Origin: Ctena decussata
Lineage: Eukaryota > Mollusca > Bivalvia > Lucinida > Lucinidae
Reading direction: 5' to 3'
Length of the DNA stretch: 64,000 bases
NCBI GenBank assembly: GCA_963989385.1
Contig: OZ022510.1
Location: 32,493,448-32,557,447, forward strand
Numbering within the stretch: position 1 is the first letter of the stretch; the number at the start of each line of letters is the position of its first letter. The notes under the pieces are model-generated. The model was not told the DNA's origin. It saw only the letters and a program-made list of their open reading frames with translations, and searched no databases. Shown here piece after piece: positions 23,971 through 36,195 of this stretch. A program made the translations under genes and the position numbers.

Positions 23971-24059
23971 GGTTGTTAACTGTTCATTAATATGTGTCAT
24001 ATCTCTTAAAATATTTCTAAAAGGTTTGAATTTGTCTCAGGAGAACTGTTTATTTTGAC

Positions 24060-24170
24060 ACTACAGTTGATCTTATTTCACTTTGCTGGTATCTCACATA
24101 TTAAACTTGCGCTTGTTAAAGTCAAGCTTCCGCAAAGTCGCGCTTTATTCTCTTCTAAAAATTGTTGTTG
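24060..24170 (+). repeat. Dispersed repeat W, copy 1
   Basis: ATTAAACTTGCGCTTGTTAAAG, AGTCAAGC and CGCTTTATT...TCTTCT also occur at 52205-52315 in the same order. About 100 bp, non-coding. Confidence 0.6.
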
Positions 24171-24865
24171 TTACCTGAAGGCATTGTCACATTCATAACG
24201 CTATTGGTCTCAAAGACTTTTGGACTGGGAGTAGTAAATTTTTCCCATGCGGACATGAGGTTTGGCAGTGTAGCTGCTGGGTGCTTCTGTAGCAAAACAG
24301 AAAATCTAGAAAGAAACAAGAGAGCCATGCTGAGACTTTATACTGATAGGTTCCTGAGATTGTTTATCAGGTACATGTAGTTTTACAGAAGATGACAATG
24401 TTTTTGTCTTACCCGCAACTAGTAGAAAATGTGACATTATGTATAGCTTTTGTCTCCGTTGGCATAAACATTTGTTGGATCTGTATAAGCAATGCAGAGA
24501 TAGTTTTGTGACCATACCTTTATAGGTAAAACACAGCATTCCATGGAATTCTTGTTTGATCATAAGAGCTTGTCCAAGCCAGATAATGGACCAGATGGGA
24601 ATATCAGTCATTTAGATAATTGTCACTTAGTGAGCAAGAAACGATATGACAGAAACTGCCATATCACAGCTTTTCTTTATCTGTTCACTTACGTACACAG
24701 CACACATTTCATTTGATATTTCAAATGGTATTAAACTACAGTATGGCCATGAAATTGCAGCTCATCCCATCAAGAAGAATTATCATGAAAGAGTGGTCAT
24801 AATTATGTTTACGGACTGAGATATACTGACTGAGAGACACCAGGCCCATTGTTTTATTCTTTGAA
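24171..24865. other. No gene identified
   Basis: Open frames up to 101 codons on the minus strand (24306-24611) show no recognisable domain and overlap low-complexity DNA. Nothing supported. Confidence 0.4.
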
Positions 24866-24871
24866 TTTTTG

Positions 24872-24940
24872 TTGGGTGATAATATAAACGTATCCACACC
24901 AAATTTAGTGCGACAGACGCGCGTTTCTGTATTTAACTTC
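24872..24940 (+). repeat. Dispersed repeat Y, copy 1
   Basis: ATAATATAAACGTATCCACA and GCGACAGACGCGCGTTTCTG followed by TATTTAACTTC recur at 25686-25752. Short and non-coding. Confidence 0.6.
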
Positions 24941-25163
24941 AGTGTCGCTAAGCCACAAAAGTTTGAAAGAAAAGAGATGATTGGTAGGTCTCGGCAGACA
25001 ACGAGCATTCCTCTCCGAGCCACACTAACTGTCGCGTTCCGCGGGACACATTAGCTGCAGACATCAGGTAAGAGACGCCTACGTATTAACTCGTGAGCGC
25101 AGGCGTCCCCCATCGAGTCCACATAGCCCCAGTGTCTCGAGAAAAGAGATGTTCGATGCTGCA

Positions 25164-25432
25164 AGATTGATTGATTGATTGCTTAACGTCCACGGTAAAC
25201 AACTAAGGTTATGTCGTGACGGTCAGTTAACATAACCACACTATTCCTGGGCAGGCTTAGACCTCCTAAGCGGTTAACCAGTACCAAGTGCACATACTTT
25301 CGTCAGTAACTGACAACTGCCCTTCTTGAATCAGCGGAAGGAGAAACGAAAGTATGTGGCCAGACCGGGTTTCGAACCCAGGACCTCTGACTTATGAGTC
25401 AGGTGCCCTACCAATGCAGCAAGAACCGGGCG
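25164..25432 (-). mobile_element. SINE-A, copy 1 (tRNA-headed)
   Basis: Read on the minus strand: a tRNA-like head with A-box-like GCATTGGTAGGGC and B box GGTTCGAAACC (25372 region), then CTGGCCACATACTTTCG, CTGATTCAAGAAGGGCAG, TTACTGACGAAAGTATGTGC, GGTTAACCGCTTAGGAGG, ATAGTGTGGTTATGTTAAC, ACCGTGGACGTTAAGC and an (AATC)n tail. The anticodon arm does not fold with a 7-nt loop, so it is a SINE head and not a tRNA gene. Confidence 0.85.
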
Positions 25433-26215
25433 CAAAAAGTCAAAACAATTAAAAAGAATGGAACCCAAACTCAGCTAAGATTCTTGTTGCTATGACAGGT
25501 TTGTCATAGTTTTAGAATAATTTAGAAATTTACCAGACATACATTAAATGGATTAAGGTTACTTTAAATCAGTATTTCAATAGTGAGCCCAATGCTAGAG
25601 AACCAGAATCAACACTGAAACACTAACTCGGTTGATGATATCCTCGGGGACAAATTGTCACTAGCAGCAATAACGGCCCAGTGGTTATAATATAAACATA
25701 TCCATACCAATTTTAGTGCGACAGACGCGCGTTTCTGTATTTAACTTCTTCAGTGACGCATGATAACCCAATCCACATCAACCCGAAACAATTGATGTAA
25801 AAAACGTACCTAGGAAAAACTTGATCAATGGCCTCATGTGTATGGCCGACCATGAAAAAATTGATTTTAACTTCTTGAAGACATGTCTTTTAACAAGGAG
25901 ACACAACAAACCCAAGAGAATCCTAAAGTCAAGAAAAAAACCCAGTTTAATCTTGCTTAAATAACCCCTGACAGAGGTTTTTGAACGGGCTAGATGTCAT
26001 GTTCAATTCACTGTGCAGTTAAGACTTGACTCAGAAAGCCTACTTATTATCCCATACCGAAGACAAAGGGGATATGTAGGGGCTGACAAATCTATTGTTC
26101 TGCACAGGGCAAGTTAAAATTTTTCTAGGCAAGTAAAATGCATGTACTGAATTCTTACTTGCACAGAAAACTGTATTGCTGTATAAGGAAAACTGAAGAA
26201 TTACAGCACTTTCTA
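25433..26215. other. No gene; repeat Y copy 2 inside
   Basis: 25686-25752 is the second copy of repeat Y (TATAAACATATCCATACCAA, GCGACAGACGCGCG). The rest shows no open frame or motif that I can support. Confidence 0.45.
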
Positions 26216-26217
26216 GC

Positions 26218-27045
26218 TGAAGCTATTCACCGGACGAGTAAAACGGTATACGACGAAACATAGAAAGACAAAAGAGAGAAGCGACACTTCATAGATAAGT
26301 CAAAACATAGACGGGACATTTAATAGATCGACGAATAATAGAACGACCAATGATAGAACAATAAGTGTGAAAACGATAATCACTTGACCGCTCGGCAATG
26401 CTTTGCGTCATTGAACATTCGCTCTTTTCAATGAAAACGTTTAAGGTCAAAGGGTTTTGATATACCTCGCAATTTTTTAAACATTTTTACACCAGTCATG
26501 GAGAATACGTGGGAATTTAAAGAGTAACTACACTTCAGGAACTGACTGAATCAGATCCCAAACCCTATCCCCAACATCAACCATTTTCCCAATGGTTTCT
26601 GTTTGCTATCAAAGAAAAGCAGTGAAATATACACAGCTGTGTTTAAAATTATCAAAGACAACTGATTAGCTTTTGGACAAATTAGCGCAAAATTTCTGAA
26701 CTTGGCCTTCGAACTAAGTACGTTGACGGTCTTGATTTCAGCTTGAAGGTACGCATGTTGACTGAATCAAATACTGAATTATTATTTCTTTTTTTAAAAA
26801 AGCTTTGTTGTCGTTATGGTTGTTAATAAAATTTTCGATGTTTCTGAAATTTTTCGATGTTATTTCGATGTTATTTCGATCTTTTTTCGATCTTATTTTT
26901 CTATGTTTAGTCTTTCTATGTATTTTCTTTTCTATGTTCTGGTTTTTCTATGTTTTGTCGTTCTATGTTTCGTCATAGACCCGAGTAAAATGTTTTAGCA
27001 AAGCATGTTGAAGCTATTTACTGGACAAGTAAAACATTTTACAAA
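26218..27045. repeat. Inverted repeat Z built from ACATAGAAA words
   Basis: Left arm about 26225-26370 with GACGAAACATAGAAAGACAA and further words ending ATAGAA or ATAGA. Right arm about 26820-26990 reads the complement (TTTCTATGTTTTGTCGTTCTATG). GAAGCTATTCACCGGACGAG at 26220 and GAAGCTATTTACTGGACAAG at 27011 are direct repeats outside the arms. The 60-codon frame over the right arm is a by-product of the T-rich repeat. Confidence 0.6.
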
Positions 27046-28110
27046 AGCATCCTGAACTTTGGAATTTTCATATTCTGTTTCTTTGTATATAAGATTCATT
27101 ATGACATGTTTTTATATAAGATTTATTAGACATTAGAACTTTTAATGGCAGTTTCGTCGTTTTCGAGAAACCCATTTGATTTGGAAGCAAACGGACTATA
27201 AACCATAATTTAAAAATAACTGTTATATAAAGTGTCTTCACACCAGCTGTAGTTAAGGTACATTCCTGACAAGACTGACTACCGAGAACAAAGAACATAT
27301 TCGTGAGTGAAACGCCAAGAACACAGAACATATTCGCGAGTGAAACAGCACTTTTTGTTTTTATTAAGATGAGGTCTGAAAAACAAAACAAACAGATGCT
27401 ATACTTTGGTTGCATAGCAACAGTTCGATTTAGACCCTTTAATTATTATAAAATTCATTGAACTCTTGAGACACAGAGGTTTCAGTGGCCTTTTGAAGAA
27501 AAATCATCAGACAATGGATGAGCAAATTGACTGACAGGGAATGATGGTAGATGAAATAGGCTCCCCATGGTCACTTTGGTCTTAGTATTTTATCATAACT
27601 GTGCACAGGTATTAAAATCACCATGTCCAAAAACTGTTTTATAATGTTGTATTAATTCAGCAAATATGACCTTTTCTACAGTATGTAATACCTGTTTTTA
27701 TTTTCTCTAGCACAGTTATCCAGTTGCAGGTACAGGGTCTCAGGAAGTTTGTCGTTTATTGAGTGTAGTAGATTAAGTGAGACAAGTATTGTCAGGTTGG
27801 ACCCATGGGGATTCTGTTAATAGTCGAAGTATTCATAAGTACCAAATCCATTGATAATTGCGCCAGTCAGATGAGTCCTGAGTTTCCACATTCCTGCAGC
27901 CATAGAGCTTAGGAACAGGAAGTTTGGAACATCTTTCTTGGATTGATCTATACAATCGATAATTATGGATACATATTTCTTTGGCTCTTGTTTAGCTGCT
28001 ACTAAGACGTGTTTATAATATTTCTGTCGTTTTTTCTTGAAATAGAAAGAATTCCCATTTTACTTAATGATTAGGTCTGTCCCATACAAGATCATGAATT
28101 TTCCAAAGAT
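27046..28110. other. No gene identified
   Basis: Short frames only (115 codons minus at 27068-27415, no known domain). Nothing that ties it to the virus-like cluster that follows. Confidence 0.4.
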
Positions 28111-28242
28111 CTTATCAACCGAAAACTTTATTTCCTCCCCCAGATCCGCATCTGCTTGAAGGTATCATATTTGTTTCCCCTCGCCTTTTCGAAGACAAGC
28201 GACGGGACATAGTATTCGGCGTTCCGTTCTTCTGTGGTTCCG

Positions 28243-28261
28243 CACCCCCCCCCCCCCCCCA
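28243..28261 (+). repeat. Poly-C tract
   Basis: A run of about 18 C. The minus-strand frame that runs through it has a poly-glycine stretch for this reason and is not evidence of a gene. Confidence 0.7.
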
Positions 28262-28359
28262 CCTTGACAATAGGTACCTTGTGTGCGCAATTCCTAGCTT
28301 TTCATTAATCATTCTGAAACTTATTCATGGCCTGTAGATGTGCATGTGACCTAGGGTTA

Positions 28360-28677
28360 TGCTCGGATAAATTTTACTACTTTTTTACTGTGCGAACTTA
28401 GTCAATTTTCAACATCAGAATATCTATTTAGTAGGTACCTTGTGTGCGCAACTCCTCCTACAACAAGATCACTAAGTTAGTGGGCGTGGGGCCAAAGAAC
28501 TACGGATACGAATATGTCGTGCTCGGATAAATTTTACTACTTTTTTACTGTGCGAACTTAGTCAATTTTCAACATCAGAATATCTATTTAGTAGGTACCT
28601 TGTGTGCGCAACTCCTCCTACAAGATCACTAAGTTAGTGGGCGTGGGGCCAAAGAACTACGGATACGAATATGTCGA
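28360..28677 (+). repeat. 160-bp tandem duplication
   Basis: 28360-28519 and 28520-28677 are the same sequence (GCTCGGATAAATTTTACTAC to GATACGAATATGTCG). They differ by a 3-base CAA indel in CTACAACAAGATC versus CTACAAGATC. TAGGTACCTTGTGTGCGCAA, part of the unit, also occurs once more at 28272. The second copy supplies the start of the polymerase-like fragment, so the first copy holds a second, cut-off version of it. Confidence 0.9.
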
Positions 28678-28807
28678 GCATGCCAGTGGCAAGAGAAAAT
28701 CTACCTGTAAAGTCAAAGAACTGACGTTAGATTACCATTCAGTCTGTTTCTTTTGTAAATCTAAGGATCATAGATCTAAAGACTGTGAACGAAAACTGAA
28801 ACAGTGA
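28604..28807 (+). pseudogene. Polinton/adintovirus-type DNA polymerase B tail fragment fused to a CCHC knuckle
   Basis: A 67-codon frame. Residues about 11-44 carry VGxGPKNYGYEY, a charged gap, then CKVKxLTLDY. This fits the block near the end of protein-primed polymerase B of Polintons and adintoviruses, where a GPKNYxY and CKVKGFxLxY pattern is usual (from memory of the family, not a search). Residues 48-61 then read CX2CX4HX4C, a retroviral-type zinc knuckle not expected there. The polymerase core is absent upstream and the frame starts in a tandem duplication, so this is a relic. It may be a chimera, or the knuckle may be chance. Confidence 0.5.
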
Positions 28808-28809
28808 AC

Positions 28810-29040
28810 CCACAGTGATGATACTAACAATGTGAGTTATGAGAGACTTTCAGTGTTATTATTACTACCAGTGATTGTGAAAGACTGCGAGTTTTAAATG
28901 AACAATATAGGAGACTTTCAGTATTATTATTACTACTAATGTGAGTTATCAAAGACGCTTAGTGTTAAATAAATAATGCGAGTTATGAGAGACTTTCAGT
29001 ATCATTACTACTAAGAGTTATGAGAGACTTTTTTGTAGTT
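28810..29040 (+). repeat. Degenerate tandem repeat (GAGTTATGAGAGACTTTCAG)
   Basis: The word GAGTTATGAGAGACTTTCAG, followed by TATTATTACTAC or a relative, appears in five diverged forms between about 28830 and 29035, spaced roughly 40-65 bp. AT-rich, non-coding, with AATAAA at 29085 and 29102 further on. Confidence 0.6.
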
Positions 29041-29149
29041 TAGAAGTCATGATAGTACTGTCATGTTTCTACATAGTTATTCAATAAATTATTTTAAATG
29101 AATAAAGTGTTGTTTTCAATCATAAGGTTTTCAATCGAAAAAGTTGAGT

Positions 29150-29165
29150 AGCCCTGAAAAGGGCT
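29150..29165 (-). terminator. Histone-type mRNA 3' stem-loop, gene 29189-29452
   Basis: On the minus strand AGCCCT-TTTC-AGGGCT: a 6-bp stem and 4-nt loop, the exact geometry of metazoan histone mRNA ends, preceded by CCCAAAC. It starts 23 nt after the stop codon of the upstream minus-strand frame. A purine-rich downstream element is weak here (GATTGAAAACC about 20 nt on). Confidence 0.8.
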
Positions 29166-29188
29166 GTTTGGGTGTTCTAAGTCTTCAC

Positions 29189-29452
29189 TTACTGTGAAGA
29201 CTTAGACACAGGTTTCACGATCCCTACAACAGGATTCGTCTTGGAGAGATTTACACCCCTTCTCCTCATAAAGACTTCAAACCCCATCTTATTCTGTTGT
29301 CTTTCGACTTCTTTCCAATCTTTCTTCTTTAACGCCTTACACAGTCGGCTGAGGTCAAAAGGAATATGCTTTGACAAACCCATATTTGAGAATGAAGTTG
29401 TTAAAGTCAATTGAATAACATGGCGGACTTGAAAGAGAGCATGCTTTCTCAA
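29189..29452 (-). CDS. Small basic protein of the virus-like cluster, unknown function
   Basis: Intact 87-codon frame. A second ATG at codon 24 (GLSKHIPFDLSRLC follows) may be the true start, because the first 23 residues look less constrained and the A+T-rich leader with GCATAAAACC lies at about 29487. The protein is lysine/arginine-rich with a helical KALKKKDWKEVERQQ centre and ends in KPVSKSSQ. No family recognised. The stop is followed 23 nt later by a histone-type stem-loop, which supports a real transcription unit. It lies between the polymerase-like relic and a second minus-strand gene and is probably a small structural or accessory gene of the same element. Confidence 0.55.
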   Translation of the reverse strand: MRKHALFQVRHVIQLTLTTSFSNMGLSKHIPFDLSRLCKALKKKDWKEVERQQNKMGFEVFMRRRGVNLSKTNPVVGIVKPVSKSSQ

Positions 29453-29530
29453 CCAATCAAAACTATGCGAATTAGTTATGGGGTTTTATGCAACTATCAA
29501 CACAGTATTTCTTTTTGAATAAAATGAAGT

Positions 29531-29546
29531 GGCCCTGAAAAGGGCC
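29531..29546 (-). terminator. Histone-type mRNA 3' stem-loop, gene 29621-29933
   Basis: On the minus strand CAAAAC then GGCCCTTTTCAGGGCC: 6-bp stem, TTTC loop, matching the canonical histone 3' element including its CAAAA leader. AAAAAGAAA, a plausible U7-type downstream element, begins about 14 nt after the stem on the same strand. The stem-loop starts 74 nt after the stop codon. Confidence 0.9.
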
Positions 29547-29620
29547 GTTTTGTGAGGCAGTGCTCAAAAGATCTTATGTGCAAGGACAACGGCTTGGCCT
29601 TCCGCCGCAGGCTGGACATC

Positions 29621-29933
29621 TTACACTCCACTCCTGGTAAGAGATTGTCCCCTGTTGCTGATAATAGAAGGGGGGGCGTCAACCTCCCTGTCCCACTCCT
29701 CAGCCATGGGACTTTCTCTTTCCTGCCGTTGGTAGTTGGCTGGTGGCGGCTCGCGGTCCTCTGGCTTCATCTCTGTCCATTCTTCTTTTACTAGAACTCT
29801 CTGATCCTCCTCTCTTCTTCTTTCTATGGCCCGCCGAGTGATGTCAAAGATATGCTTCAGCACCTCCACTGCCCTCTGCAGAGAGTCCAACTGCGCCTCA
29901 AAGTCTCAAACAGGCTTCTTCTAATTCAGCCAT
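29621..29933 (-). pseudogene. Coiled-coil small gene of the virus-like cluster, one frameshift
   Basis: The ATG at 29933 opens a frame that shifts after 11 codons by one extra T (about 29899-29902). After that a frame runs to the stop at 29621, so the whole would be about 104 residues. The middle is a leucine-heptad and charged stretch (SLQRAVEVLKHIFD, RRAIERRREEDQR) and the end is proline-rich and acidic. No family recognised. A CATAAATAG box lies about 20 bp upstream of the ATG and a canonical histone stem-loop follows the stop. The single-base shift may be decay or a read error. Confidence 0.55.
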
Positions 29934-30064
29934 CGTAACAATGGGTCAATGCGCAAGCTATTTATGCAGTCAGCGCGGACCTGATAGAAAGCAAGTAAGT
30001 AAGTAGGTCAATCCAACTGAGAAGTATATAAGGACATACTGGAGTGCTTTGCAGTAATGTCAAT
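29934..30064. promoter_or_regulatory. Divergent promoter with a TATA-like box on each strand
   Basis: Minus strand: GCATAAATAGC at about 29950-29960, upstream of the ATG at 29933. Plus strand: GTATATAAGG at 30023-30032, about 33 bp upstream of the ATG at 30065. Only about 130 bp separates the two start codons, a virus-like compactness. The plus and minus boxes are each at a spacing that would give very short leaders. Confidence 0.55.
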
Positions 30065-30457
30065 ATGGAGACTGCGTTCACTTTGGACGATATTGTAAAA
30101 GATCTGAGAGGATCGGATATCTTAGCGACTGCAGTCAATTCTATCATGGACGACGGTCAACAACAACAAACGTATGTTCAGCCGACGACGTACTTCCAAT
30201 CAGTACAGACTAGGCCGACGCAGCAAGGCATGGGCGCTCTAGCGAATATGATCAAAGAATAAAGTGACCTGAAGACCAGAATTCAAAGATTAGAAGAACA
30301 ACAGCAGCAGCCCAGCATGCTAGAATTCAGCGTCAAGCCTATCAAAATACCCCTGACTATTGATGTGACCACTTCGGAAGAACACACGGAATCGAGATGT
30401 GGCGTAGGTTCACACTGCAAGGACATAGAGAATCCTAGAAAAAAGAAAACGAGATAG
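30065..30457 (+). pseudogene. Acidic/Q-rich small gene of the virus-like cluster, one nonsense codon
   Basis: The preferred start is the ATG at 30065 (METAFTLDDIVKDLRG), 33 bp after the TATA box; an upstream in-frame ATG at 30044 is possible. The frame runs 65 codons to TAA at 30260-30262 and then continues open in the same frame to TAG at 30455-30457, about 130 codons in total, so a single nonsense codon splits it. Visible parts: an acidic amphipathic N-terminus, a Q-rich stretch, a short coiled coil (RIQRLEEQQQQ) just after the stop, and a basic RKKKTR end. A histone-type stem-loop follows 30 nt after the TAG, as expected only if the longer frame was the real gene. No family recognised. Confidence 0.55.
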
Positions 30458-30486
30458 ACAGAAAAAAGCCGCTATAACAAACAAAC

Positions 30487-30523
30487 AGTCCTTTTCAGGA
30501 CTACCCAATTCTTTTAGAAAGAG
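30487..30523 (+). terminator. Histone-type 3' stem-loop plus downstream element
   Basis: AGTCCT-TTTC-AGGACT at 30487-30502, preceded by ACAAAC and followed by ACCCA exactly as in histone mRNAs. AGAAAGAG at 30516-30523 lies 13 nt downstream, the position and composition of the U7 snRNA-binding histone downstream element. The stem differs in sequence from the two minus-strand loops while its pairing and the TTTC loop are kept. Confidence 0.9.
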
Positions 30524-32287
30524 TAGGGGAAATTGGGGCAAGTGGGACACTTTTTGGAAAAACACCTGCTTTCACAGGATAATAAGATAGAGAAAAAATC
30601 TGTTGGCACTTTATAACTCCTCATCACATGATTTCATATTACACATTAGAGGCCTTGCACCAGTATATGTTAAAAAACAGGGCAGCATTAATACCATGCT
30701 GTCAAATGTCCCACTTAGGTAAGTGGGACACAAATTGCAAATAAATTTTAAGCATTTCAACTTTCATTTATGTTCACTGTGAAAGAAAAATGCATGAGTT
30801 TAAGTTGCAGATTAAACCATTTGTACCACAGAAAGAGAAGCGCAAAAATCAAAACGCTTTGAACCTTTTAATAATATCGGGTGTAGATAACAAAGAAAAA
30901 CTAAAGGGATAAACTTTACCCCGGCATTTAAGTTATTTACTGTGGGCTTAAGTTATATTAACACATTCATTAACTCGAATATGCAAAAGCATTATGATAA
31001 AACGCTCAAAAACTATAATCAGTGCACTGACATTGACAAGATAACGGATGTGTTCCATTCAAAATTAATATCAAAATACCCCACCCGCTACATTTTCTTT
31101 GCAAGTGTTCTTCCCAAATATAATAAAATTCAGACGTCGACACTTTTGTTATTATGGCATTACTATTATGAAGAATCTGTGTGGAAATAATTAAAACCAT
31201 AATACTATGCAAGGAGCGTTTAGAAAAATAATAAATAATCAAACGAAATAAAGTGGGTGGGATAAAGCCAAATTATCATGTTTCAAGTCGAATTTGTCAT
31301 GTGAACAAGAGCTAACTGATCTTTTGTTACACCAGGCTGCTCCCAGCAAGATTCTGTATACCAAAAGTGTCCGACTTATTCCCTGAGCTTCTACATCAAA
31401 ATATATAGCTGAACTTGTAAAGTCAAAATACTGGCGTCCCAGTTACCCCAGTATGTTGAAGTAAATGGCACAGCGTCAGTCAGCTGTTAGACTGTGGTAC
31501 TTGAAAGTTTCAACAATATCGAAAATGATAAAATCATAATAATTTTCTACCATTCTTTTATTTACCATCTTTTTGAAAAAAAGTGTGAAGACTGAAATTA
31601 AAATAGCTAACTCAAAATCATGAGTGCAACATCACAGAAGATGACAGTAAACTGACGTCACGTCAGATCGAAATAGCGTTACATATTTGTAGCTCTATGC
31701 AGACGCGTTGTTGTAGTGTATTGAAAATTTTCATACCAAAAATTTACCACGCTTTCTGTTTAAGACAATAGTATTGGATTTTCACATAAAATAATACCTT
31801 TTTTATAAGTTCAATTCCCTTTTTATATGTGCCATGTACATTACGTCGCTTCAGTCACAGCTTACGTCAGGAATGTTATTTTACAAATGGGCTAATAAAC
31901 ATTTGCTTATTTAACGACAAGAAACAATAATATTTTAGCTCAACTTTAGACAATGACCATTTGTTTTCCCTTGCTCGAGCGATATAATTTTAAGTGTCTC
32001 AGTGGAAGGGTTAATTTATAACGATGGTTCATACTGACCAATGCTGCTATATCCTTCTTATGCAAATGAATGACCTCGCCTATTCTGGACCTTCAAATTT
32101 AAAATGCCAGCAGTGCATTCTTTTGAATATCTAAGACTCGTAAAAATTCCATTTCTAAACAAAGCAATAGAAATGCTTTGGCAATATTTATTGACTTGGT
32201 AAGTGCGCACCATATGCTGGGTCTGGGGCTCTATGAATAAAATGTGTCCCACTTACCCCATTGTCCCACTTGCCCCAATTTACCCTA
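30524..32287. mobile_element. Element S: TA-flanked inverted-repeat transposon
   Basis: The body 30526-32285 begins GGGG and then AAATTGGGGCAAGTGGGACA; the right end carries the complement with one change. TA at 30524-30525 and 32286-32287 fits a Tc1/mariner/pogo-type target. GTCCCACTTA...TAAGTGGGACA motifs recur just inside both ends (30713-30730, 32244-32263). The longest internal frame (82 codons) has no transposase features, so it is non-autonomous. It inserted one base after the histone downstream element of the gene before it. Confidence 0.85.
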
Positions 32288-32755
32288 CCCCATACGAATT
32301 GTCGCATTCTGCACACAAACCTCATGACTAACTGCATTAAAACAATATACACATCTACTTCTTAACCTTAATAACAATTCCAGCATAATTTCAAAACTTT
32401 ACAAACCTTAAATACGCTATTTTCCCTTGAACATACACTAAGCGCAGCTTCTATGGCGGCCCACGTCTTGTTTACTTCGGCTAGATATAACTGACATCAT
32501 AAACGTTCAAACATAACGTCACAACTGGCCAAAGACGTCGCGTGATCCCGCAAGTTTTCTTGTGTGCTCCTACAGATCCTACAAACTTCCTATAACGTCC
32601 CGCAAAGTTGCGTGCATGATTCCACGGCTATTTCTTGTGGGAAAATGGCGCTGAATCGTCCTAAGAACAACTCTGCGAGCCTAGGAACTTGACTTCTACG
32701 GCTTTAAAAGGGCCTAACAGGGGCTCACTAGCCTAAATAAGTTAACTCATGGATT
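32288..32755. other. No gene; slightly CpG-richer stretch
   Basis: 32440-32700 contains several CG words and a CCACGTC/GACGTCGCG cluster ahead of a short ATG-led frame at 32644. I do not see enough to call a gene. Confidence 0.35.
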
Positions 32756-32864
32756 GGCATCTTTGGGTACGGCCATGTATTTTTACACTAGGCGACCGTG
32801 CGGAGTTTTTTTCAGGCCAAAAGTCTATGTAAAAATACATGGGAAAATCCGTACCCAAAGTGCC
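32756..32864. mobile_element. 109-bp foldback element
   Basis: GGCATCTTTGGGTACGG at the left pairs with CCGTACCCAAAGTGCC at the right, and ATGTATTTTTACA with TGTAAAAATACAT inside. The loop is GC-richer (AGGCGACCGTGCGG). No coding capacity. Confidence 0.75.
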
Positions 32865-33965
32865 TGTCCTTACTACTACCATTTAATAACGCTGTTTAGC
32901 GAGCTATTGTCGGATTCTCCGACAGTTCTAGTTAATTCATTGTTTATTCCCTCCATGCATTCAGTACTGTAATTTTTCGAAAGAGATTCGTATCGTGGGA
33001 TTGAGAGCCAGTCTTCTCCTGCTTGTTTTCCCCTGTCTAGTTTTGTGTTCAAAGATATCTTCACAACCATGTATGCTGGAAAGTTCATATTTAGTGACAA
33101 TGACAAGTTGTATCGTAGGATAGAGAACCAGTTTTCTCCAATATATTTTTCCCTGCGTTCAATTTTCTCCTCTCCGTGTATTCTTTCTATGCCTTCAGTA
33201 TTTTGTATTCTTTCCATGCCTTCAGTATTTTTTCGTAAAAGACTTCAGCAAATGTTCAAGGAAGAATCTTCATATTTGATATATGAGTTGACAATTTCTG
33301 TCCATGTGAAATTTTATTTTTTATTCTATATTTCATATCATAGAAACTTAAGTAGAATAATTGATTTGGGTATACATATTGACAACGGGTTCTATCTCTC
33401 TATACTCCATGTAATGAAAATAACACCATTTACGAAAGCCTGTTAAGCGGGGATGTAGTCAAATTCTTCGAAGTTCTAGTTGACTATAAGATAGGCAAGT
33501 ATATCACACATACAATATAAAAACTGCATTACTGTGGCGAAGACAAGTGTGAAAGTGAAATTGTTTAAGCTTGAAAAGTAGACTTCCTTTCGTGTTCTTC
33601 ATAATTTTGACCAAAACAAAAAAAATAAAATAAATAAAAAAATAAAAATATTAATAAACAAAATATTCACAGTCTACTTCATTTTTTTTATCTGCTCAAC
33701 CTGATTATGTGTAAAAGAGTTGCAAAAAAAACTGGTACGCTCTTTACAATGTATTGAAGTACCTTCAGACTTAAATACATATTCTATAGTGATGTAAATT
33801 TCGGCATCTAAGTTTGACCTTGACCCTTGTCAGGCTTAATAAGGTGAACATTTGGAAAACAAAATCAAGTGAGTTGATATTCTTGCTGAAAAAAAATATA
33901 ATCAGCTTCTGCAGTGGTGAAGCTCCTCACATTTTGTCGGCAAAATGGGAGTGTTTCTGCATGTA
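32865..33965. other. No gene; diverged direct repeats
   Basis: GTATCGTGGGATTGAGAGCCAG (32990) and GTATCGTAGGATAGAGAACCAG (33111) are diverged direct repeats, each followed by TTTTCTCC or TCTTCTCC. Frames on both strands here (113 and 133 codons) follow this repeat and show no domain. Confidence 0.4.
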
Positions 33966-33967
33966 CT

Positions 33968-34156
33968 CTATTTCTAACTTGAATATGTCGTTAAAAATAT
34001 ATTGTAAGTTATAAACAACTTGTCCCTGAATGGTTTCAAAGGTGTCCCTGAATGGTTTCAAAGGTTTCTGAATGTACCAGACTATTTCTAACTTGAATAT
34101 GTCGTTAAAAATATATTGTAAGTTATAAACAACTTGTCCCTGAATGGTTTCAAAGC
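33968..34156 (+). repeat. 114-bp tandem duplication
   Basis: CTATTTCTAACTTGAATATG starts at 33968 and 34082 and the following 70 bases are identical. GTCCCTGAATGGTTTCAAAG is itself duplicated next to the first copy. Confidence 0.85.
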
Positions 34157-34420
34157 TGCTGTATGATCATTGCTTTCTTTCATTATTTTTTCAGTTCATT
34201 GAGCTTTCCTTTCTAAGAAAAAATATCAATGTTAATACTGATCAAGCATATGTTACGTATGACGTCGCTGTTATTCAGTGGATAACGTCGTGTCATAAAA
34301 ATCGTATGACCACACGTGTAATAACACTTTGGTGCGTACATGTAACGTCACTGACAACGTTCATGTCATCAATGCTTTTTCTTATTGCAATAATGTTAAT
34401 TTGAAAGGCGATAAACTGGC
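34157..34420. other. No gene identified
   Basis: An 86-codon plus frame here lacks any recognisable domain. CGTAACGTCACTGACAACGT-like words are visible but unassigned. Confidence 0.35.
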
Positions 34421-34503
34421 CATATGATAAACAGAATCTTACACTCGTGGTCATTTCATATGAAATTTATGAAACTCGTACTCGTGTAAGATCCTTTATA
34501 TTT
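34421..34503. mobile_element. Foldback element, family Q, copy 2
   Basis: CATATGATAAACAGAATCTTACACTCGTGGTCATTTCATATGAAAT on the left and ACTCGTGTAAGATCCTTTAT on the right pair. Same termini as 353-505 but without the inner GATAAGATGC hairpin. Confidence 0.65.
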
Positions 34504-34896
34504 GAAAGCATTTATCTTCAGCTGACTGTAAAGTCTAGACTTAGCTCACTGTAAGCTTACACTACAATCAAAACAAACTCGTTATCTATTTAGAAAATAG
34601 ATATAATAGCTTGTATTGATACCATCTTATTTGTTAGACTTAAATGGCTTTCTAGACAGACAGATACGATTTATTGCGGATTATGTTTTATCGGGGAGTA
34701 AGTTGCTTGATTTCTCCGGTTGACCATAAATTCTAGAACCGCTGTATTAAAAGGTTATGCAGTTAACTCTTATTCGACCAGTTCAGCTTTATTTGTTTTA
34801 TATCATAATTGTATGTCTAATATGACTGGTGCTTGCTGTTTATGTCAGATATACGATTCAATCTTTGTCGTATGCGTACAAATTATTTCTTCTAGG

Positions 34897-35374
34897 TTAA
34901 AGTCTTCAAGTCCCATCAGTGGTAAAAACGTCTTGACACAAATCATCGTAAAAAAGCGGTTCAACCTTCGCATTTGGTAATGCAATGTGGGTTGATGTGC
35001 AGATATTGAGTCATCTAGTTGGCAAAAAGTAGAGAAAACAAGGTGTTGAAAATAAACAAATTCCTCGTCAAAGTACAATTTCCAATTCTGGTTTCTCATC
35101 CAGTAATGCGATATAAACATAGTCGGGATAGTGAATTGGGCTTCACTCTTGTACATTGTTATTCTACCATTTAAAAAAAAAAACTGATGAAATCGGAAGA
35201 TCATTTTAGTTGCCAAATTAAGTTTTCAAACCCGTTTTATGTGAAACTCAAGGATGTTTTATCTATTTAAAGCTACCTAGTCACGGTCATATACAATGTC
35301 GAAACTACAGTGAGAAGCTTGCACGATACCTAATGATATTTTTTTTCATGCTGATAGAGCAAAGTGGCATTTAA
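34897..35374 (-). mobile_element. Family C element, minus copy
   Basis: TTAA at 34897-34900 then AGTCTTCAAGTCCCATCAG; the other end is GCTGATAGAGCAAAGTGGCA then TTAA at 35371-35374. The whole length is 478 bp, matching the other full copies. The 123-codon frame inside is on the element's own sequence and is not a gene. Confidence 0.8.
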
Positions 35375-36195
35375 AAGTGTTTGCACATCACTGAAGCAGC
35401 TAGGCTTGTATCATCGATACATGGTTTATTGACGTTGAAATGCCAAATGCTCCACCGTTTTGCTGACCTTGTTGACTTTCAAGCCAAATATACAGTAATT
35501 TGCGCACTAAAATGATACCAGTATAGGCCATTTTTACGTGTCCGATGCATACAATTTACATCAGGGCAGCGTGTTCTATCCGATGTAAAAGCTGTAGAAT
35601 ATGCCTGTTGTTATAATCCCAGTATTTATTATTTATTCAGCCATCGAAACACTATCCAGAATTAATTGTAAGCCTTCGTGCTTTACAAATCGTATCAAAG
35701 AAACAGTGATACGAAGCAGATACCTTGACACGACTGGAAAAACTCAATATTCAACATGCGAGTGCATTCTTTGAAGTTTTATAAAATAATGGGAAGATCC
35801 GTACGGAAAAGAAGCAATAATACACGATAATGGGTAAACACATTTCAAAATAAATTTATAAAAAATTCGAACAAAGCCTTACTTGTTTAAAAACAAGGTC
35901 ATTATTTTTAAAATGTTTTCAGTTATATTTTCCGTCCATTGCACTGGCCGAACACGAGTCCTTCTATCATAAAAAGATTCCATACGTACACCTTTTAAAA
36001 TACTTGGTGTTTGATACCGAGAATTCACTCAATGGCAGAGCATATGCAACATAAGTTTTCAAATCCTGGCTTAAAAACATTAAGCCTAGGTTTGAACTTC
36101 AAATGTTCAAATTGTCAATCATAGGTTCGAAAGATAATTTCTCAAACCACGATTTTAACTTTCATACTTAATCCATTAATGCCTCGCGTTCCATA
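35375..36195. other. No gene identified
   Basis: AT-rich; nothing supported beyond short frames. Confidence 0.4.

Follow-up and report, generated by a model that had tools for sequence, protein, structure and literature searches.

According to openly available accounts, the mRNAs of replication-dependent histone genes in animals carry a 3' stem-loop and a purine-rich element that are bound by SLBP and the U7 snRNP, and the transcript is then cleaved without polyadenylation. In giant viruses such as mimivirus, a palindrome sets the 3' end of the mRNA, but these mRNAs are polyadenylated and the enzymes involved are viral. A noncoding RNA scan of PLV and virophage genomes tallied six histone 3' UTR stem-loops (PMC12220804); the available portion of that paper gives the number only, without genes, conservation, or mechanism, and places none of them in its cryptophyte elements. 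Apart from this tally, searches of open-licence full text, in which absence is weak evidence, found no account of histone-type 3' ends on the mRNAs of Polintons, adintoviruses, or other viruses, and the term "stem-loop" is absent from the accessible text of an adintovirus-related paper (PMC11071296).

The locus analyzed here lies in a 64-kb stretch of DNA from Ctena decussata, referred to below as the window. It contains three small genes, A, B, and C, and their sequences make it probable that these are the terminal genes of a Polinton and that their mRNAs end like those of replication-dependent histone genes, by way of the host SLBP and U7 snRNP. When the whole window was compared with Rfam using cmscan at the gathering threshold (34 bits for RF00032), the loop of gene B gave the only match of any family. 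A lax scan of positions 24000 to 36000 (12 kb) against all families ranked RF00032 next at the loop of gene A and also found it at that of gene C, and all three matches fall within 1.4 kb (Table 1). The prediction of three small nonhistone genes, each ending in a histone-type 3' loop, is confirmed by RF00032 matches at all three, those of A and C being below the cut-off. Loose matches to the 16-mer mean little, since 11 sites were observed and 5.15 expected, and these three sites are the only ones with zero or one mismatch. The stems around the TTTC loop (AGCCCT/AGGGCT, GGCCCT/AGGGCC, and AGTCCT/AGGACT) had been said to differ yet keep pairing, and this also holds: the differences among genes affect two of the six pairs, changed on both sides, and 100% of cells are paired in the comparison, which comprises eight natural sequences from three genes and few independent events. 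In these eight sequences the leader ends in AAAC and the trailer begins with AC.

Table 1. Positions, in the window, of the three genes and of the features associated with them
Feature	Position	Strand	Evidence
Tail of CCHC zinc-knuckle gene, the neighbor of gene A in fuller copies	28742-28807	+	C-terminus identical to CCHC ORF of L064
Gene A histone-type stem-loop, 6-bp stem, TTTC loop	29150-29165	-	RF00032, 28.9 bits (match 29124-29170, E = 7.4e-5), below cut-off
Gene A, 64-aa basic protein, intact; stop 29189-29191	29192-29383	-	ORF
HDE-like run of purines downstream of loop B (AAAAAGAAA)	29508-29516	-	Sequence comparison
Gene B histone-type stem-loop	29531-29546	-	RF00032, 38.9 bits (match 29506-29551, E = 7.2e-8), over gathering threshold
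Gene B, frame broken here, limits approximate	29574-29933	-	ORF list, sequence
TATA-like box of gene C, TATATAA, read by eye	30025-30031	+	TATAAAA at matching place in L062
Gene C, in-frame TAA at 30260-30262	30065-30457	+	ORF list, sequence
Gene C histone-type stem-loop	30487-30502	+	RF00032, 28.6 bits (match 30482-30527, E = 9e-5), below cut-off
HDE-like run of purines downstream of loop C (AGAAAGAG)	30516-30523	+	Sequence comparison

The original prediction treated the three as genes without distinction, but B and C are not intact in the window copy, B having a broken frame and C an in-frame stop. On the left side the CCHC gene is reduced to its tail (the zf-CCHC match, at 19.5 bits, is slightly under the Pfam cut-off), and on the right homology with other copies ends just past the gene C purine stretch; the window copy is a fragment, truncated from a larger element. 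The gene A protein is strongly basic (pI 10.4), and its AlphaFold model (mean pLDDT, 64.2) contains three short helices and is too weak for a fold search. Intact relatives of gene B encode acidic proteins of 103 to 120 amino acids with a cysteine-rich end, terminating in CPACGGRPSRCPC, and those of gene C encode proteins of 130 to 135 amino acids with a pI of 5.7 to 6.7 and a basic tail. None of the A, B, or C proteins has a histone match in Pfam, as expected from the prediction that they do not resemble histones.

Gene A has at least 143 matches in the genome (1.66 Gb in 245 contigs), of which 139 contain no internal stop. The counts for loops A and B cover 143 copies and those for loop C the 30 best copies, all from a single genome. 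In 131 of the 143 copies loop A is exact, and in 140 it has at most one change; of the other three, L074 and L091 appear to have lost one base (L091 with a further change), and L097 has two changes. For loop B, 126 copies are exact and 131 have at most one change; in the other 12, none was found in a search of 230 nt. Eight of these 12 form a third subfamily, in which gene B lies outside the stretch examined. Sequence upstream of A differs in this subfamily (L075, L077, L092, L110, L113, L115, L116, and L135), and its loop A is exact in all eight members and matches RF00032 in all five that were scanned. Among the 30 best copies, exact loops were found in 29 for A, 29 for B, and 27 for C, with one change in two further loops C and the loop missing in one copy. 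Loss of the loops from intact homologues, the outcome that the original prediction had set against itself, is therefore not what these copies display.

Loop A is less variable than its surroundings: over the 143 copies, a minor-allele fraction of 0.0048 in the loop compares with 0.0126 to 0.0201 directly beside it, 0.0437 for the sequence separating B from A, and 0.0952 for third positions of gene A codons. The corresponding value for loop B (0.0561) is no lower than that of its surroundings, because 12 of the 143 copies lack the loop at the place searched. Pairwise diversity in the 30 best copies, in figures that include truncated copies, is 0.0042 for loops A and B and 0.0458 for loop C, versus 0.063, 0.195, and 0.183 for the coding regions of A, B, and C, respectively. 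Loop B exceeds the gathering threshold in all 15 loci listed (15 of the 30) and also in L062, L065, L091, and L097; it falls below the threshold in L066, L074, and L090, each with one change. Loops A and C are below it wherever listed (26.9 to 30.6 bits against a cut-off of 34). The RF00032 scan gave no match for the changed loops A of L074, L090, L091, and L097, for the loop A of L065 (one change), or for the loop C of L064, in which the 16-mer is exact and the trailer differs. Since the hairpins are kept across many copies, the element probably borrows the host machinery for histone messages.

Many copies are nearly identical and not independent (gene A proteins are identical in 21 of 29), so that comparison between lineages is the stronger test. 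Between L034 and L039, each of the three loops is identical at 16 of 16 positions, whereas the coding sequences are identical at 176 of 195 positions in gene A, 170 of 364 in gene B, and 236 of 394 in gene C. The A-B intergenic region retains 121 of 134 positions, while around loop C only 9 of 27 positions are identical just before the loop and 45 of 101 after it. At the protein level, the two lineages share 48% of residues in gene B, 50% in gene C, 60% in PolB (over 838 aligned residues), and 80% in the integrase. Gene A has a dN of 0.013 and a dS of 0.65 between L034 and L039; in gene C, silent sites are saturated between the lineages, and pN is 0.29. As read from these alignments, the contrast between loop and neighborhood is large for C, good for B on the gene side, and modest for A. 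It is weaker for A and B than for C because the adjoining sequence is itself well kept and loop A has flanks of low variability. One locus, L065 (C12:44429000-44433500), is a mosaic that combines a gene B of the window type with a gene C of the other type, which suggests recombination between the lineages and an exchange of modules.

The spacing of the loops and of the purine runs that follow them is nearly fixed. The distance from stop to loop is 22 nt in 29 of 29 copies for gene A, 23 or 26 nt in 26 of 28 for gene B, and 26 to 30 nt in 22 of 24 for gene C. In the window copy, loops B, C, and A are followed by purine runs at distances of 14, 13, and about 17 nt, respectively. Among the copies compared, the run lies 13 to 14 nt past loop B in 29 of 29, and it reads AGAAAGAAA in most of the copies displayed; for loop C it lies 12 to 13 nt past the loop in 25 of 26 and 19 nt past it in the remaining one. 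An AGAAAGA-type stretch 12 to 14 nt past loops B and C is thus found in 54 of 55 copies compared. The run after loop A, at about 17 nt in 28 of 28, is shorter and weaker. In sequence and spacing, the purine stretches qualify as histone downstream elements, with putative pairing to U7.

The hairpins might instead serve RNA stability, translation, or export, perhaps with SLBP, while the usual cleavage and polyadenylation take place downstream. Such a function is compatible with the copy on contig C7, in which ATTAAA lies 11 nt past the stop of gene B and AATAAA 114 nt past that of gene A, and with the finding that some histone genes also make polyadenylated transcripts (PMC3661734, accessible portion). 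Two indirect points speak against it: a purine stretch that cleavage would remove is kept together with the loop at near-fixed spacing, and in the window copy neither AATAAA nor ATTAAA occurs within 150 nt past the stops of A, B, or C. Missing poly(A) signals are, on their own, a weak argument, since several other genes of the element have no nearby hexamer and the C7 copy has them near A and B; hexamers of this type make no clean split between the loop genes and the other genes. On the whole, downstream polyadenylation of these transcripts seems rather unlikely.

Far less probable is a role of the hairpins as DNA-level elements of the Polinton, such as signals for recombination or packaging, whose likeness to histone loops would be accidental. 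Three near-identical palindromes within 1.4 kb, close to one end of the element, could be expected of such signals, but each loop lies shortly past a stop, in the sense orientation of the gene it follows, whichever DNA strand that gene occupies, and the match to the histone model extends beyond the palindrome to the leader, the loop, and the downstream stretch.

The assignment of the genes to a Polinton/adintovirus-type element, as originally proposed, is borne out by fuller copies. The copy on C7, assembled from separately read pieces, has its termini at C7:69344143 and 69362569 (18,427 bp), with terminal inverted repeats (TIRs) of about 270 nt that begin with AGTAGTAAAG and a 6-bp target site duplication (TSD), ACCGTT, in the one copy examined. 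A(-), B(-), and C(+) occupy its right end, inside the TIRs. A 1,332-aa ORF encodes PolB (DNA_pol_B_2, PF03175; E = 5.6e-47), a family B polymerase of the viral, protein-primed kind, for which priming itself is predicted. An rve integrase (PF00665; E = 8.7e-14) with a Chromo domain, an adenovirus-type cysteine protease (PF00770; L063:3-374 on the minus strand, 25.1 bits against a cut-off of 21.3), a Pox_A32-type packaging ATPase over the Pfam cut-off, and a CCHC protein complete the recognizable set. In a second element examined (C9, L068), a PolB piece, split across two frames, and the integrase are also present. Polymerase, integrase, and capsid genes had been anticipated beside intact copies, and the first two were found; the capsid candidates by place and size, ORFs of 433 and 287 amino acids, have no meaningful sequence match in Pfam or PDB, and capsid genes are probably among these and other ORFs of the element. 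The same right terminus is reached by 18 of 28 copies compared and is followed by differing flanks, which identifies the copies as separate insertions; the window copy, being truncated, lacks this terminus. A scan for specificity at a lax threshold, covering L061, L062, L063, L067, and L068 (two copies of the element, the second partly covered), found RF00032 only at genes A to C in L062 and L068, and none in L061, L063, or L067.

It is highly improbable, and as regards location largely refuted, that A, B, and C belong to the host as linker-histone-like or other cell-cycle genes situated next to or within the element: a tandem array of a nonhistone gene with an imperfect histone loop does exist in the same genome, but in the C7 copy the three genes lie within the TIRs of an 18.4-kb Polinton with its TSD, gene A occurs at ≥143 places, and Pfam finds no histone in any of them. 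The 3' cassette itself may have been captured from a host gene long ago.

The array just mentioned (C4:9057373-9220948, plus C4:238952; loci L001 to L030) proceeds mostly in steps of 1.95 kb. All 75 of its scored RF00032 places (of 321,393 candidates) have 32.2 bits, which is below the cut-off, and no true histone gene was seen among them. Host histones were considered as their source and rejected, since the 106-aa ORF of L001 and L010 (MKVSLDKRFTLSDAERRFRR...) is not a histone. This ORF ends in an imperfect histone loop with one C-A mismatch, displayed for four loci, followed by AAGAAAGATT, and a TATA-like box is present in L010. The protein has no histone match, only HR1 and DUF349 below the Pfam cut-off, and no match in PDB. 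By these features the array appears to be a histone-like array of a nonhistone gene; beside genes A to C it would be a second exception to the histone-only use of such 3' ends in animals, perhaps a domesticated or host counterpart.

With 3' ends formed by the host histone machinery, expression of the cassette could proceed as follows. Three short single-ORF genes at one end of the Polinton would each be transcribed from a promoter with its own TATA-like box; besides that of gene C (Table 1), such boxes were read by eye, with no chance control, as GCATAAAA for gene A and GCATAAAT for gene B. Host SLBP would bind the loop, host U7 snRNP would pair with the purine stretch, and the transcript would be cut just past the loop and receive no poly(A) tail. 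Processing by SLBP and U7 without a tail would in turn favor S-phase expression, as it does for histone genes. The element would probably benefit from producing small nuclear or virion proteins in a burst during replication of host and element DNA; a DNA-condensing role for the basic gene A protein and regulatory roles for B and C are guesses. It is likely, on the strength of these sequence features, that a lineage of animal DNA viruses or Polintons has taken over host SLBP and U7 snRNP and transcribes a fixed cassette of three genes into histone-type mRNAs that lack poly(A) and are linked to S phase. In the divergent promoter between B and C, AAGTAGGTCAATCC is kept in both lineages (30001-30014 in the window; L062:840-853) and resembles a nuclear-receptor half-site.

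Searches of IMG/VR returned nothing for gene A, PolB, gene B (by alignment), the C4 array protein, or the loop pattern, and those of GTDB contigs returned nothing for gene B (by alignment) or the loop pattern; DNA of a relative from a second host was not found in either collection. Protein relatives numbered 4 for gene A (E ≤ 10), 19 for gene C, and 51 for gene B (E ≤ 1), mostly on ENA contigs. Two of them (P0008 and P0027; 100% and 99%) may come from the species of the window itself, and one relative of gene C sits in a metagenome-assembled genome named Candidatus Thiodiazotropha, a symbiont of lucinid clams, which makes bivalves the probable host group. The gene B relatives P0036 and P0040 represent clusters of 776 and 608 members with the common end CPACGGRPSRCPCS, and these cluster sizes reflect high copy numbers elsewhere.

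If the proposed processing is correct, it would be a viral 3'-end strategy without precedent found in the open-licence literature and a new way for animal viruses to finish their mRNAs; it would break the rule that confines such ends in animals to histone mRNAs, and it would tie the expression of element genes to the host S phase. The loops and downstream sites of the copies would also form a natural collection on which recognition by SLBP and U7 could be studied. Because a single genome contains ≥143 copies of gene A and most are open, existing RNA would suffice to test the proposal directly.

In its PolB (PF03175), rve integrase with chromodomain, PF00770 protease, Pox_A32-type ATPase, TIRs, 6-bp TSD, and length of 18.4 kb, the element resembles Polintons/Mavericks and adintoviruses, and it differs from those described in the papers that the searches reached in that three small genes at its end carry histone-type 3' stem-loops. 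Unlike the hairpin-terminated transcripts of mimivirus, those of A, B, and C would depend on the host histone pathway. Where the accessible text of PMC12220804 offers a bare count of stem-loops, the loops described here come with their genes and their conservation. Genes A to C share with metazoan replication-dependent histone genes an RF00032 loop after the stop, a purine stretch, a TATA-like box (read by eye), and a short single ORF, but their proteins are not histones, the stretch downstream of gene A is weaker, and the genes reside in a mobile, virus-like element.
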